Source: an uncultured Granulosicoccaceae bacterium (lineage in GTDB: Bacteria > Pseudomonadota > Gammaproteobacteria > Granulosicoccales > Granulosicoccaceae). Taken from it: 48,652 bases of DNA. The notes beneath the pieces are model-generated. The model was not told the DNA's origin. It was given only the letters and a program-made list of their open reading frames with translations, and made no database searches. Of this stretch, positions 18,272-24,017 are shown one piece after another. Position numbers and translations under genes: made by a program. Position 1 is the stretch's first letter. Each line of letters opens with the position of its first letter. The DNA is taken from the NCBI GenBank assembly GCA_938003855.1, contig CALKXD010000139.1:1-48652 (forward strand), read 5' to 3'.

Positions 18272-19168
18272 ATGAATGCAGACAATCCACGTTTATTGCT
18301 GCTCGCGCCATTGGTTTTTTTATGTCTGTGGTCTGGTGGCTATGTTGTAGCAAAGGTTGGCTTGGCCTATGTAGAACCGATGACATTTCTGGTTATTCGC
18401 TACGCCACGGTAGTTGTAATCATGTTGGTGATGTTTCTTTTGATCAAGCCGCCGTTGCCGGAGAGACCGATTGACTGGGTGCATCTGGCTGTGGTCGGGT
18501 TTCTTATCCAGGCGGTCTATTTCGGTATGTGCTACCTCGGTTTCACGGCGGGGATAGCCGCTGGCACAATGGCGCTGCTTATGTCACTGCAGCCGATACT
18601 GGTTGGGATGGTGGCACCGCGCTGGACCGGCGAGATCATTGGCTGGCGGCGGTGGAGTGGTTTGGCGCTCGGGTTGTCCGGTACGGTAGTGGTGATAGCC
18701 GCCCGATCAGAGATAGAGCCGCCGACCGTCTTTGGATTAACCTGCGCAATGCTGGCGTTGGCCGGCATTACCGGCGGCACGTTGTGGGAGAAGCGCTTCG
18801 GAGTATCCCACCATCCGGTCACTGCTAACCTGATCGGCTATGCCGCCGGGTTGGCCGGGGTGGTGCCTGTGATGCTGATGCAGGAGACCATGCAGGTAAA
18901 CTGGACCTGGTCGTTTGCGGCCGCGTTAGCCTATCTGGTGATTGGTAATTCCGTTATTGCAGTAGGACTCCTGTTGGCAATGATCAGAGCCGGAGACGTG
19001 AGCCGTGTGTCTGCGTTGTTTTTTCTGATACCTCCGTTGGCGGCTGTTTTTGCCTGGGGAGTGCTTGGCGAGGTTATGCCGCCAATTGCCTGGGGTGGAA
19101 TGATTATCGCGGCGGCGGGTGTTTATCTTGCCACCCGGCGGCACCCCGACAATGCCGGGCCCGCCTGA
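18272..19168 (+). CDS. EamA/DMT family transporter
   Basis: A 298-residue, ten-helix drug/metabolite transporter. It has FLCLWSGGYVVAKVGLAYVEPMTFLVIRY in the first two helices (the WSG/N motif of YdcZ/RhtA-like exporters), YFGMCYLGFTAGIAAGTMALLMSLQPILVG, GEIIGWRRWSGLALGLSGTVVVIAARSE closing the first repeat, and SALFFLIPPLAAVFAWGVLGEVMPPIAWGGMIIAAAGVYLATR closing the second. The ATG at 18272 follows GAAGAAAATACT; an upstream in-frame GTG would add 20 residues that do not look like part of the protein. Third EamA gene in about 6 kb. Substrate unknown. Confidence 0.88.
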   Translation: MNADNPRLLLLAPLVFLCLWSGGYVVAKVGLAYVEPMTFLVIRYATVVVIMLVMFLLIKPPLPERPIDWVHLAVVGFLIQAVYFGMCYLGFTAGIAAGTMALLMSLQPILVGMVAPRWTGEIIGWRRWSGLALGLSGTVVVIAARSEIEPPTVFGLTCAMLALAGITGGTLWEKRFGVSHHPVTANLIGYAAGLAGVVPVMLMQETMQVNWTWSFAAALAYLVIGNSVIAVGLLLAMIRAGDVSRVSALFFLIPPLAAVFAWGVLGEVMPPIAWGGMIIAAAGVYLATRRHPDNAGPA

Positions 19169-19363
19169 CTATTTGGTTCGGGCCTGTTGTGGTTGAATAG
19201 GCAATTTCACAGCGGCAGCGGGTTTAATACCTGCTTTCAGCGATGCGCCGCCAGTGCTCTCTAAAGTTGACTTGAACGGCACAATAATTTTCTGTTGACG
19301 GGCTTTGGACGGCCGATAAGTTGGTAACATGCTGAGCATTATTGGCGTACTGATTAGAGTTAC

Positions 19364-21460
19364 ATGATTTTAAAAGACACTCCACTACACTTGGCCGGGA
19401 CGCTGTGCGCAACTCTGCTACTTACAACATCTCCTTTGTTTGGTGACGGCGTTGGTCATCATCATGATGATGTCGGAGTGGCGACGCAATCCAGTGCCAG
19501 TTGGCCTGTAAAACGCGAGACCGCCTCGTGGCCATATCAGTCACGGGTTATTAAAGCTGGCGAAAATACCCTGGGACAACCTGCGGTGTTCGGGCAGTGG
19601 TCGGATGTCATGTCGTGGCCGGTGATCGCGGTTCACGCTAACTTGCTGCCTAACGGCAAGGTGCTGGCGTGGGATGCGACTCCCGATGATTTTGACGACG
19701 ATCCACACACGGCCGAAACCTTTACCACACGTGTGACGCTTTGGGATCCACAGGACAATTCCCATGTGTCGACCAACAACGATACCAACTCAGACCTGTT
19801 CTGCGCCGGGTCCGCGCACATGTGGGATGGTCGGATTCTGTTTGCCGGTGGTGACACCGGCCGGGCGGGTTTAAATGGCCCGTTGTCGAATACCAGCATC
19901 TATGATCACGTCACCAACACCTGGCGTCAGGTCGCGAACATGGCAGCGCCTCGCTGGTACTCTTCGCTGGCTGCACTACCCAATGGGGAACTGCTAACCT
20001 ACGGGGGCACCTACACGCCGGTCCCGGTGGCCGAGGTTTTCACTTTCGAGGAGACATGGCGGTCATTGATATTTGACCCACCGGAATGGGCATCGATTGA
20101 TTACCAGTGGCTGCAGGCAACCCCGGAAGGGAAAGTGATGTCGTTCGGGCCACAGCGGTCCCTTGCCACCATCGATACAGAGGCTAACGGGTCGGTGACG
20201 CTGGGGGCTTACCGCGATGAATTCTCAGAGCGTCGCTACGGCAGTTATGCAATGTACGATATTGGCAAGGTGCTGGTTGCCGGTGGTGCCAACAGCAATG
20301 GCCTGGAGCCTTCCTATAAATCATCGGTTGTTATCGATACCGCCACTGGTCAGTCTACCGATACCGGTTCTCTGGGTATTGGCCGGACGCAACATAACCT
20401 GACTATTCTGGCCGACGGGTCGGTACTCGCCACTGGCGGTGCGGATGATGGCCCGGTGCTGGTGAGTATGGATGGCGCCGTTTTTCGCCCGGAGATCTGG
20501 TCACCTGAAACCGGTCAGTGGCGATACATGAACGACATGCAGATCAACCGCCAGTATCACTCTATAGCCTTGTTGTTAGCTGATGGACGAGTCCTGTCCG
20601 CGGGTGGCGGGTATTGTGGCACTTGTGCAGAAGTGGGCTACGAAGAAAAAAACGCAGAGATTTTTTCACCGCCGTATTTGTTTTCTGATGGTGACACGCT
20701 GGCTGTAAGGCCGCAGATTACCAGTGGGCCGTCTGTCCTGGACTACGATCGTGCGTATTCCTTTACTACTGACCAGGCCCCCGGAATTTCGAAAGTGCAT
20801 CTGATCAAACCCGGTGCGGTGACGCATTCGCAGAACCAGGATCAGCGACTCATTCCGTTGCAATACACCAGTAACGCGGGGTCGGTGACTGTAGCATCAC
20901 CTGAAAACAGAAACATCGCCCCTCCGGGGCACTACCTGTTGTTTCTAGTGAACGATGAAGGTGTGCCATCAGTTGGCAAAATGATAAAAGTTGGTCAGCC
21001 GCTTGTTGCCTCCGGTGATATTGTTTCCAACGCGGTGCGGGCCGGAGAGACAGACAGTTACGCGATTGAGTCGTCGGATCAAGATGCCGCCTTGCTGGTC
21101 TCTATGACCAATGTTGCACCCGGCACCAGACTGTCCGTGGTAGGCGATGCGAGCACCGGTCAGGTAACCGCTGAATGTAATGCCGCTGCAGTTGCACAGA
21201 CCGTGGAATGCCGGCTATCGAACCAGGTGGCTACTCGTTGGCTGCTGAATGTCAGTACAGACACCACCACTGACTATGTTCTGGTGCCACAACTCAGCAC
21301 GGTGGACGACCCCGCTGCAGAGCAACCGAACAACAACCCGGAGCCACCCGTTAATCCTTTACCGGTTGTGACTGGTGGCGGGGCATGGGGTTTGGGTCTG
21401 CCTGGATTGTTTGCGGCGTTGCTTATCGCTAGCCGTCGGCGTTTCTGCTCAGTCGCCTGA
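19364..21460 (+). CDS. Secreted copper radical oxidase (galactose/glyoxal oxidase-like) with GlyGly-CTERM-like tail
   Basis: A 698-residue exported enzyme expected to oxidise primary alcohols or aldehydes with O2, releasing H2O2. A signal peptide (about 1-28) is followed by a His/Asp-rich patch. Kelch-type beta-propeller repeats span about 85-435, and a DUF1929-type Ig-like domain about 445-545. By comparison with Fusarium galactose oxidase every active-site residue is present: Cys147 (DLFCAGS) and Tyr199 (PRWYSSL) for the thioether-linked Tyr-Cys cofactor, Tyr398-His399 (NRQYHSIALLLADGRVLSAGG) and His488 (THSQNQDQRLIPLQY) as copper ligands. A bacterial pre-peptidase-like domain (about 550-645) and a Pro/Asn linker lead to TGGGAWGLG, a hydrophobic stretch and RRR, resembling a GlyGly-CTERM signal for rhombosortase. 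Substrate not predictable. Confidence 0.9.
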   Translation: MILKDTPLHLAGTLCATLLLTTSPLFGDGVGHHHDDVGVATQSSASWPVKRETASWPYQSRVIKAGENTLGQPAVFGQWSDVMSWPVIAVHANLLPNGKVLAWDATPDDFDDDPHTAETFTTRVTLWDPQDNSHVSTNNDTNSDLFCAGSAHMWDGRILFAGGDTGRAGLNGPLSNTSIYDHVTNTWRQVANMAAPRWYSSLAALPNGELLTYGGTYTPVPVAEVFTFEETWRSLIFDPPEWASIDYQWLQATPEGKVMSFGPQRSLATIDTEANGSVTLGAYRDEFSERRYGSYAMYDIGKVLVAGGANSNGLEPSYKSSVVIDTATGQSTDTGSLGIGRTQHNLTILADGSVLATGGADDGPVLVSMDGAVFRPEIWSPETGQWRYMNDMQINRQYHSIALLLADGRVLSAGGGYCGTCAEVGYEEKNAEIFSPPYLFSDGDTLAVRPQITSGPSVLDYDRAYSFTTDQAPGISKVHLIKPGAVTHSQNQDQRLIPLQYTSNAGSVTVASPENRNIAPPGHYLLFLVNDEGVPSVGKMIKVGQPLVASGDIVSNAVRAGETDSYAIESSDQDAALLVSMTNVAPGTRLSVVGDASTGQVTAECNAAAVAQTVECRLSNQVATRWLLNVSTDTTTDYVLVPQLSTVDDPAAEQPNNNPEPPVNPLPVVTGGGAWGLGLPGLFAALLIASRRRFCSVA

Positions 21461-21947
21461 GTATGTGTCCGGTGTACCCGTCCGGATCGAGTTTTTGTCT
21501 TTCATTGGCGTGGTGCTGATCGCTGACCAAAGCACAGGATAGAAACCGCAGTGACTCAATGTGGTCGAAGTATCGATCGGTGACCATGTATCGCGACAAG
21601 GCGAAAGAGAACTTTGATGCACGGCGGCGTGTATTCACATCAATCCATTTTAACCACTGGAGCCAGTTTCTGAGCGATGTGCAGAACTGGCTATGGATGG
21701 TTTACAGGTAGCCGCTGTAACGCGAGCAGGAAGGCCGGGGCAGCCACGTCGCGGAGTTCGCATTTTTGTAACCCGATGGTGATGACGCTGCGGTATTGAT
21801 GTGTTGTTAAGTTGTACAGGCATCAATTTTGCGCTGTGCAGTGATCTTAGCGGACACATTCAGCAGGCGCTTTACATCAATGTACCCATGATTGCCGGTA
21901 GCAGACAATGCGGCGGCTCTGATCAAACTGCATGTCGCGCTGACGGT
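21461..21947. other. Stretch without a firm gene, 487 bp
   Basis: Separates the copper oxidase from the DUF2341 gene. On the minus strand a 69-codon frame (21429-21638) overlaps the oxidase 3' end by 32 bp. Its product is charged and natural-looking (RYMVTDRYFDHIESLRFLS) but resembles nothing I know. No T-tailed hairpin is seen after the oxidase. The rest should carry the DUF2341 promoter. Confidence 0.35.
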
Positions 21948-24017
21948 ATGTCGCGATTGTTGTCGTCCGCGTTGCTTTGGTTATCTCTTCTAACTATGGG
22001 CAATGGCGCCCTTGCCGCGTCCTGGTGGAATTGCGACTGGTACTATCGGTCGCAAATAAGTGTTTCGGCATCTGGCGCCGCGACCGACTACGCCGTTCAC
22101 CTCGATCTATCCTCCACTGATTTTGACGATAGTTATTCGTTTACCGCGGACGGCAGTGATCTGCGTGTGCTTGGTCCGGATGGTGTGACCGAGTTGAGTT
22201 TTTTCCTGGAGCACTGGGATGCGATTACGCGACGTGCGGTCGTGAATGTAAGCATGGCAGAATTATCAACCACGGCTAGTAGTATCTATCTGTATTACGG
22301 TAACTCGGCAGGGGCCGCAGTCAGTGCAGTGACGCCAGCGAGCAGCGCTGTCGCCACCTTTGTGGAGGCGGGTTGGCGAATTCACACTAGAGTGACTTCT
22401 GTCGACCCGGCAAATGAGGCGCAGGCACGTGCCGTGTTTGACTCTGTCGACGATAGCACGGGGGGCTACGGATGTGCGGTGTACTCTGATATAACCGGCC
22501 GCAACAACCGCAATACGTTTAACGGGCCTAATGGAAATTACGGCTTATTAAATGAAGTCTATTTCGAAGTCGATGTGCCTGGCATCTGGTCGTTTCGTTA
22601 TGGTGGCGACTATGGTCTGGGAGGCGGGTTGTATGTAAACAGCCTGGCGCTGGACGAACGATGGAATGATGATCTGTGGTGGGCGATGAACTTTAATAAT
22701 CCTGATGTTCTCAGTGGCTCGATACTGCTCGATAATGGATACCATCACATAGAGACCATTGGGTTCGAGGGCTGTTGTGACGGTCCTATTCATGTGCAGT
22801 TCAAGCGACCGGGGTCGGCGCAATGGCTCGATATGTCTTCAGCCAATCTGCCGTTATATGGCCGCAGTTGTCCCCCGGGAAGTATCACGGACTCGTTGAT
22901 CGACCGTCAGTCGCCGACCTTTTTCAGCGGCAGTCTGTATCTTGATAACGGTGTTGGTGGTAGCGCCCATGATGGCATCCGTAGCAGTGGTGAATCGGGG
23001 GTTGAAGGTATTGCTGTGACCGCTACCGTACTGTCCACCGGTAGCGCAGTGACCGATCATACTGAAGCGGATGGAAGTTGGAAGGCATGCTTTCTGGATG
23101 AGGCTGACGGCCGGGATATCGTTATTGATTCTCAGCTTCCGGCTGACTATCTGGCTGTCTCCGAGAACTTGGCAGCAGCGAATGACAGCCCCGATATCGA
23201 TAGCGTTATAGCGTTCAATGCTGCGCCGGACACGCACTACGCTGATATAAATTTTGGTGTTGTTGAGCGACCCCGGCTGTCCGCAGATAGAAACGTCACA
23301 ATAGCGGCGGGTGCCCGCGAGCTGTTGGCGCACCGATATACTGCGACGACAACTGCACAGGTGTCTCTGCAGGTGTCACAGCGGGTAGATGGCTCGCAAT
23401 CGGGGTTTACCTATCTGGCCTACAGAGACGTCAATTGCGACGGTCTTGTGGAGCAGCCCGCCGTGTGGCTCAGCAATCCGATCAGTGTGGTTGCTGGCGA
23501 AAATATATGTCTGGTAGTGCAGGTCACGGCAGATCAAGACGCAGATCAATCTACAACTTTGAGCCTTAAGATCGATGCGACCAGTGCCTTGAGCGGGATT
23601 GGCATTGTGGATACCGTTACAAACATCGATGAAGTGTCGGGAGACGAGCGCAGTGAGTTGCTATTACGAAAGCAAGTGTGCAATGACTCACGCACAACCT
23701 GCGAGATTATCAGTGGCAGCGGGTTCGGGCTGTATAATTCGGGCTCGCCTGGTGAGATACTTCAGTACCGGATTGTGTTTTCATCGCTAAATAGCGCGGT
23801 GTCTGATATCAACCTTTATGACTCGGTTCCCGCCTACACCACGCTTGCGCCAATGAGTGTCACACTTGCAGAGCAACCGCCGGGGGTGAGCTGTACTGTG
23901 GTGCAGCCAGGTAGCCAGAATGTTAGTGGCTACAAGGGAGACATTGAGTTTCAATGCTCCGGAAGTTTAGCGCCGACAGAAGCGGGTGTTGTTGGTTTTA
24001 GTGTAATTATTGATTAG
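21948..24017 (+). CDS. Large secreted DUF2341 protein with SdrD-like and DUF11-like repeats
   Basis: A secreted protein of about 689 residues. I place the start at ATG 21948 because it begins a good signal peptide (MSRLLSSALLWLSLLTMGNGALAAS); the frame runs 49 codons further upstream without sense. The mature start WWNCDWYYRSQISVS and LSFFLEHWD, VVNVSMAELSTTASSIYLYYGNSAG are diagnostic of DUF2341, a beta-sandwich of surface and secreted proteins. The middle (about 160-310) is an unrecognised, Gly/Asn/Trp-rich domain with two neighbouring Cys (GCCDGPIH). Then comes an SdrD-B-like section (GVEGIAVTATV, ADINFGV) and a C-terminal DUF11-type repeat ending FSVIID. There is no sorting tail or transmembrane anchor, so it is probably released. 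Function unknown; same strand as the copper oxidase. Confidence 0.72.
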   Translation: MSRLLSSALLWLSLLTMGNGALAASWWNCDWYYRSQISVSASGAATDYAVHLDLSSTDFDDSYSFTADGSDLRVLGPDGVTELSFFLEHWDAITRRAVVNVSMAELSTTASSIYLYYGNSAGAAVSAVTPASSAVATFVEAGWRIHTRVTSVDPANEAQARAVFDSVDDSTGGYGCAVYSDITGRNNRNTFNGPNGNYGLLNEVYFEVDVPGIWSFRYGGDYGLGGGLYVNSLALDERWNDDLWWAMNFNNPDVLSGSILLDNGYHHIETIGFEGCCDGPIHVQFKRPGSAQWLDMSSANLPLYGRSCPPGSITDSLIDRQSPTFFSGSLYLDNGVGGSAHDGIRSSGESGVEGIAVTATVLSTGSAVTDHTEADGSWKACFLDEADGRDIVIDSQLPADYLAVSENLAAANDSPDIDSVIAFNAAPDTHYADINFGVVERPRLSADRNVTIAAGARELLAHRYTATTTAQVSLQVSQRVDGSQSGFTYLAYRDVNCDGLVEQPAVWLSNPISVVAGENICLVVQVTADQDADQSTTLSLKIDATSALSGIGIVDTVTNIDEVSGDERSELLLRKQVCNDSRTTCEIISGSGFGLYNSGSPGEILQYRIVFSSLNSAVSDINLYDSVPAYTTLAPMSVTLAEQPPGVSCTVVQPGSQNVSGYKGDIEFQCSGSLAPTEAGVVGFSVIID

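Follow-up and report, generated by a model that had tools for sequence, protein, structure and literature searches.

The window analysed here is the whole 48,652-nucleotide stretch of contig CALKXD010000139.1 (positions 1 to 48,652, forward strand; assembly GCA_938003855.1) from an uncultured Granulosicoccaceae bacterium. Positions 19364-21460 of this window encode a secreted bacterial copper radical oxidase (CRO), here designated P0001. It belongs to a CRO clade, referred to below as the clade, that is present in 20 of 36 genomes of the family when counted at 51% identity or above. A class-wide draw of 369 genomes gave six matches at E<=1e-60, the source genome included, and a single clade-level match outside the family, at 48% identity. 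The strand opposite the open reading frame is interrupted by stops, and a promoter scan of positions 19100-21900 returned 0 sites where 1.8 were expected. The gene and its product are laid out as follows:

19364..21460, + strand: CRO gene (P0001), a single open reading frame of 698 amino acids with an ATG start, stop included
19364..19444, + strand: predicted signal peptide, approximately residues 1-27; second most hydrophobic region, from residue 10, with a modelled helix at 10-20
19445..19480, + strand: His-rich mature N-terminus, DGVGHHHDDVGV, directly after the signal peptide
19589..20698, + strand: kelch propeller, approximately residues 76-445, from kelch matches and structural alignment to CROs over residues 66-545
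19802..19804, + strand: Cys147, thioether partner (galactose oxidase Cys228), by alignment
19955..19960, + strand: Trp198-Tyr199, by alignment; Tyr199 is the cofactor Tyr (galactose oxidase Tyr272)
20012..20014, + strand: Tyr217, at the galactose oxidase Trp290 position by alignment; Tyr in 22/22 clade members
20555..20560, + strand: Tyr398-His399, copper ligands (galactose oxidase Tyr495-His496), by alignment
20708..20992, + strand: galactose-oxidase-like E-set domain, residues 449-543 (PF09118, E 8.6e-26)
20825..20827, + strand: His488, copper ligand (galactose oxidase His581), by alignment
20993..21319, + strand: pre-peptidase C-terminal (PPC)-like beta sandwich, residues 544-652 (AlphaFold model of the segment alone, mean pLDDT 95.6)
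21320..21367, + strand: Pro/Asn-rich linker, approximately residues 653-668; pLDDT drops to low values from residue 659
21368..21457, + strand: GlyGly-CTERM-like tail, residues 669-698, with VTGGG, a hydrophobic helix and RRR; no TIGR03501 match

Pfam profiles recognized kelch repeats and the GO-like_E_set domain in P0001, giving it the kelch propeller and C-terminal E-set domain by which membership of the CROs is judged. When we searched the PDB with phmmer, the nearest solved structures were all CROs, led by the bacterial galactose oxidase of Pseudoarthrobacter siccitolerans (9g8h/9g43, E 3.7e-66) and followed by fungal alcohol and galactose oxidases (E 7e-57 to 1e-45), including Fusarium graminearum galactose oxidase of subfamily AA5_2 (1gof, E 8e-54), by GlxA of Streptomyces (E ~3e-39) and, far more weakly, by the Fusarium aldehyde/glyoxal oxidase FgrAldOx of subfamily AA5_1 (E 1.8e-18). 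An AlphaFold model of the whole protein, built from a 15-sequence alignment (mean pLDDT 77.2), superimposed on solved CROs with Z scores of 39.8-49.3, compared with 23.3 for the best non-CRO; individual values were 49.3 for the P. siccitolerans enzyme, 47.0 for 1gof, 43.4 for GlxA (4unm) and 39.8 for FgrAldOx (9n3u).

The first-pass annotation had placed five residues of P0001 in the register of the galactose oxidase active site, and had proposed a structure-guided alignment to the AA5 family as a check. We aligned P0001 with 27 homologues and three paralogues from its own genome (31 sequences) against residues 224-639 of 1gof, the catalytic part, checked against the PDB chain. Residues C147, Y199, Y398, H399 and H488 fell opposite C228, Y272, Y495, H496 and H581 of galactose oxidase, and all five were retained in 31/31 sequences. 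The catalytic residues are therefore all in register, and the assignment, like the fold, held up. Residues and fold together mark P0001 as a CRO (AA5 in the broad sense), for which copper-dependent release of H2O2 is predicted.

P0001 shares the five catalytic residues and the propeller and E-set layout with both the fungal and the bacterial galactose oxidase, but the surroundings of the active site differ. Position Trp290 is occupied by Tyr217, and in the multiple alignment the loop that holds Tyr329 and Arg330 in galactose oxidase is deleted; in the pairwise phmmer alignment to 9g8h, an Ala stands opposite the Arg at position 330. Both the Tyr substitution and the missing loop are found in 22/22 clade members. 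The W290/R330 pair has been described as a key indicator of galactose 6-oxidase activity (PMC11267884), and P0001 has neither residue. Galactose is thus disfavoured as its substrate, and P0001 is probably not a galactose 6-oxidase. The same source reports a Tyr at the W290 position of CgrAAO, an aryl alcohol oxidase (PMC11267884). In addition, P0001 has a Trp directly before its cofactor Tyr, as in FgrAldOx, whose second-shell Trp, W509, immediately precedes Y510 (PMC13094651); W198 thus gives P0001 the second-shell Trp of the aldehyde-oxidase type. This Trp is present in 22/22 clade members and in seven of the nine more distant aligned sequences, and is therefore common among these bacterial CROs rather than specific to the clade. 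In GlxA, loss of the second-shell Trp is reported to impair formation of the cofactor (PMC13094651). Judging from these residues, the predicted substrates are small alcohols, perhaps aromatic, or hydrated aldehydes, rather than galactose.

The source genome encodes further CROs. One (1002 amino acids; L058 368-4052, contig C114) is followed by a gene for a Sco1-like copper chaperone, with overlapping frames; no homologue of this Sco gene was found in the other loci compared. Another (L059, contig C44) keeps the equivalents of Trp290, Tyr329, Arg330 and Phe464 and ends in RTX-like Gly/Asp repeats, features suggestive of a galactose oxidase exported by type I secretion.

Outside the catalytic core, P0001 departs from the galactose oxidases at both ends. 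Only about 75 residues precede the propeller, signal peptide included, so there is no counterpart of the N-terminal carbohydrate-binding domain of 1gof. The signal peptide is predicted to be cleaved near residue 27, exposing the His-rich segment. At least two His residues lie just past the signal peptide in 15/22 clade members (counted by eye), for example in HHHDD and AHGNEH, and the segment at 19445-19480 is a putative copper-binding or copper-recruitment element. At the other end, P0001 carries additions that the galactose oxidases lack, namely the PPC-like domain and the sorting tail. The best Foldseek matches to residues 544-652 were PPC and collagen-binding domains, although weak (5sv5, E 9.4e-5, TM 0.71-0.74). 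The segment of P0001 itself gave no PPC profile match, PF04151 (PPC) was matched by 5/15 homologues (best E 2.9e-14), and in the alignment of the domain two Cys and one Trp do not vary. GlxA is, like P0001, a bacterial CRO, but it comes from a Gram-positive bacterium and is not known to have a rhombosortase tail; P0001 scored 194.9 bits against the GlxA equivalog model NF052501, far under the cut-off of 800.

The tail, VVTGGGAWGLGLPGLFAALLIASRRRFCSVA, forms the extreme C-terminus of P0001 and contains its most hydrophobic 17-residue stretch (mean Kyte-Doolittle 1.73); the model has a helix at residues 680-693, and confidence is low over residues 659-682 ahead of it. The Gly-Gly-Gly, hydrophobic segment and RRR reported in the first-pass annotation are all present, in the order of Gly/Ser-rich motif, hydrophobic segment and terminal basic residues, and are conserved in the clade. 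P0001 gave no match to the curated GlyGly-CTERM model TIGR03501 (cut-off 15.5 bits) at E<=10 in any test. Among 15 full-length homologues a single one matched, weakly (E 0.16), and 2/8 homologue tails exceeded the cut-off when short and isolated. We therefore use the wording 'GlyGly-CTERM-like': the tail is real but divergent from the curated model. MYXO-CTERM sorting by a myxosortase was also considered. The signature motif of that system contains an invariant Cys (PMC11980579), and P0001 has no Cys before or within the tail helix, its sole tail Cys lying after RRR; its tail scored 7.6 bits against TIGR03901 (cut-off 20), and this route was rejected. Two homologue tails came closer to such models, L035 exceeding the cut-off of MYXO-CTERM model TIGR03382 (18.7 against 15.85) and L032 falling just below that of TIGR03901 (18.8 against 20).

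We then counted tails with an author-set, uncalibrated hydropathy rule, consisting of Gly-Gly, 13-22 hydrophobic residues and at least two basic residues. By this rule the strict tail occurs in 15/22 clade members (15/23 if L148, a later addition in which the tail is absent, is included) as against 0/22 CRO paralogues. A relaxed Gly/Ser version was found in 17/22 and 1/22, respectively, and any such C-terminal helix in 19/22 and 2/22. Paralogues were counted on complete C-termini only, leaving out L082, which has no stop in its DNA stretch, and their sample includes 20 further regions drawn from a longer paralogue list. Among the homologues, L051 (internal stop), L053 and L054 (partial matches) were excluded, and L012-L024, which lie largely on the same contigs as other loci, were counted once. 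Three of the seven clade members that lack the strict tail have no C-terminal helix at all, and these helix-less members are long forms of 932-1118 amino acids.

The order of parts in P0001 is that of VesB, a Vibrio cholerae cargo of the GlyGly-CTERM, rhombosortase and type II secretion route: enzyme, beta sandwich, disordered linker, Gly-Gly, helix and basic end (precedent in PMC6219818 and PMC13393428). VesB is a serine protease, whereas P0001 would be an oxidase cargo. The source genome (6.8 Mb in 312 contigs, 98% complete) carries the corresponding machinery. The first-pass annotation had named absence of a rhombosortase gene as a finding that would count against sorting. The gene is present, and its product scores 152.8 bits (cut-off 84) and shows the GxSG and His motifs; as a control, the same model had matches in all 14 reference genomes, 0/14 of them above the cut-off. 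The type II secretin GspD is likewise encoded (593.5 bits, cut-off 351). A search for exosortase (TIGR02602) gave no match in the genome at E<=0.01, and PEP-CTERM/exosortase sorting was rejected on that ground. Downstream of the CRO gene, positions 21801-24017 encode a secreted protein that contains DUF2341 and matches the CCXG PEP-CTERM family (95.2 bits, cut-off 90); this protein is without a sorting tail, in a genome without a detected exosortase.

Other proteins of the genome bear similar tails. TIGR03501 gave seven matches across it, two of them above the cut-off, in an astacin-like protease (L005) and at an internal site (L006). The latter open frame (L006 1-2532, contig C64) has a GlyGly-like tail followed in frame by an apparent lipoprotein start and a CHRD domain, and represents either a fusion or two adjacent genes read as one. 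A custom model built from 16 tails picked out 13 places, the best four being members of the model. Eight of the nine further places were inspected (all except L107), and five of them end a protein with such a tail. These five, L101, L102, L103, L104 and L106, lie outside the model, combine a Gly-rich or similar motif with a hydrophobic stretch and a basic end, and include two alpha/beta hydrolases and one cadherin-type protein. With E-values no better than 0.5 to 1.4, each of these matches is weak by itself.

In addition, the rhombosortase gene adjoins gspG divergently, across a gap of about 150 bases (L001 722-2004, contig C16). In a survey of 41 genomes, all above the rhombosortase cut-off, this divergent pair was found in 35/35 genomes of the family and in 1/6 outside it, the two batches examined giving 22/22 and 14/19. 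The one remaining family genome, G032, has a clade CRO and no rhombosortase above the cut-off, and its CRO tail is without Gly-Gly; G024 has a rhombosortase, yet its CRO tail also lacks Gly-Gly. A 2011 paper reported that genomes with rhombosortase generally have a type II secretion system and found no link to a subclass of that system (PMC3237569); the word gspG is absent from its main text. The 35/35 linkage bears on the cooperation of rhombosortase with type II secretion.

In the neighbourhood of the CRO gene, no gene recurred in at least three of 15 loci (14 homologous loci and the window), except for an open reading frame antisense to the CRO gene itself, seen in 3/15; a conserved operon partner was thus rejected, and no pathway backs the role of the CRO. 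A DyP peroxidase partner was not found at E<=1e-5.

We conclude that rhombosortase and type II secretion probably place the enzymes of the clade on the surface of the cell. This surface-sorting interpretation, advanced in the first-pass annotation, gains support from the presence of rhombosortase, the contrast in tails between clade and paralogues, the other tail-bearing proteins and the gspG linkage. Three other readings were weighed against it. That P0001 is a catalytically dead kelch protein with a structural or binding role at the surface is highly improbable: many kelch propellers are non-enzymes, but here the five catalytic residues persist in every aligned sequence, including copies about 35% identical, where drift would be expected to break some of them. 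It is unlikely, although less so, that the CRO is a periplasmic enzyme held by an uncleaved C-terminal transmembrane helix, with the Gly run serving only as a flexible linker. Such an anchor would agree with the failure of the P0001 tail against TIGR03501 and with the tails of L027, L043 and L044, which keep the helix and lack Gly-Gly. Against it, Gly-Gly stands directly before the helix in 15/22 clade members whereas the linker diverges, Gly673 is almost invariant in a 15-member alignment, and the genome holds both a rhombosortase and other proteins with such tails.

We also regard as distinctly unlikely that rhombosortase frees the enzyme rather than anchoring it, giving a diffusible secreted oxidase. 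V. cholerae VesC, which bears a GlyGly-CTERM, is freed by autoproteolysis in its linker (PMC13393428), and the linker of P0001, roughly 16-20 residues long, is likewise modelled with low confidence; VesC, however, needs its own protease activity for release, which an oxidase does not have, and VesB is reported to be mainly surface-bound (PMC6219818).

From the gene, its domain order, active-site residues, predicted fold, conserved tail and the rhombosortase and type II secretion genes of the genome, a course of surface display can be set out in which cleavage, lipid linkage, location, activity, substrate and biological role of P0001 are predictions. P0001 would be exported by Sec, fold in the periplasm, bind copper and make its own Tyr199-Cys147 cofactor, while its C-terminal helix would retain it in the inner membrane pending rhombosortase. 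The protease would cut at Gly-Gly and attach the C-terminus so formed to an ethanolamine phospholipid, the course indicated for VesB, and the type II secretion system would carry the protein to the outer surface, delivery possibly being aided by the PPC-like beta sandwich, which occupies the place of the VesB Ig fold. A tail alone is reported to lead to membrane association, whereas export across the outer membrane requires a second signal; for beta-lactamase, the combination of an Ig fold and a tail is enough (PMC13393428). By analogy, we conjecture that the PPC-like domain supplies this second signal, and surface display, if it occurs, should need type II secretion besides the tail. At the surface, small (perhaps aromatic) alcohols or hydrated aldehydes would be oxidized with O2, releasing H2O2 beside the cell.

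In the literature searched, which covered few subscription papers and is weak evidence of absence, we found no description of a CRO with such a sorting tail, and nothing on Granulosicoccus with galactose oxidase or on a CRO with type II secretion; no CRO terms occurred beside rhombosortase terms among the matches listed. To our knowledge, bacterial CROs outside Streptomyces have been little studied. P0001 pairs an enzyme type and a sorting route that are each known, and it is the combination, together with the surround of the active site, that we did not find described. Known rhombosortase cargo consists mostly of predicted hydrolases (PMC13393428).

Taken together, these results may be read as a single account, whose chances as a whole we consider evenly balanced. 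Granulosicoccaceae and a related family would have evolved a distinct CRO clade whose active-site surround is a hybrid, the cofactor Tyr being preceded by Trp, Trp290 replaced by Tyr and the galactose-binding loop missing. Through rhombosortase and type II secretion the enzyme would be displayed, lipid-linked, on the outer surface as an oxidative rather than hydrolytic cargo, and in Granulosicoccaceae the gene for the sorting protease would be in genetic linkage with those for the type II pseudopilins. P0001 offers a testable model of whether this sorting route can handle metalloenzymes that need copper in the periplasm first. Granulosicoccus is a genus of kelp surfaces (PMC9238374), and if the account is true, a surface-fixed source of H2O2 in its relatives would be a candidate for action on host polymers, neighbouring cells or redox signals.
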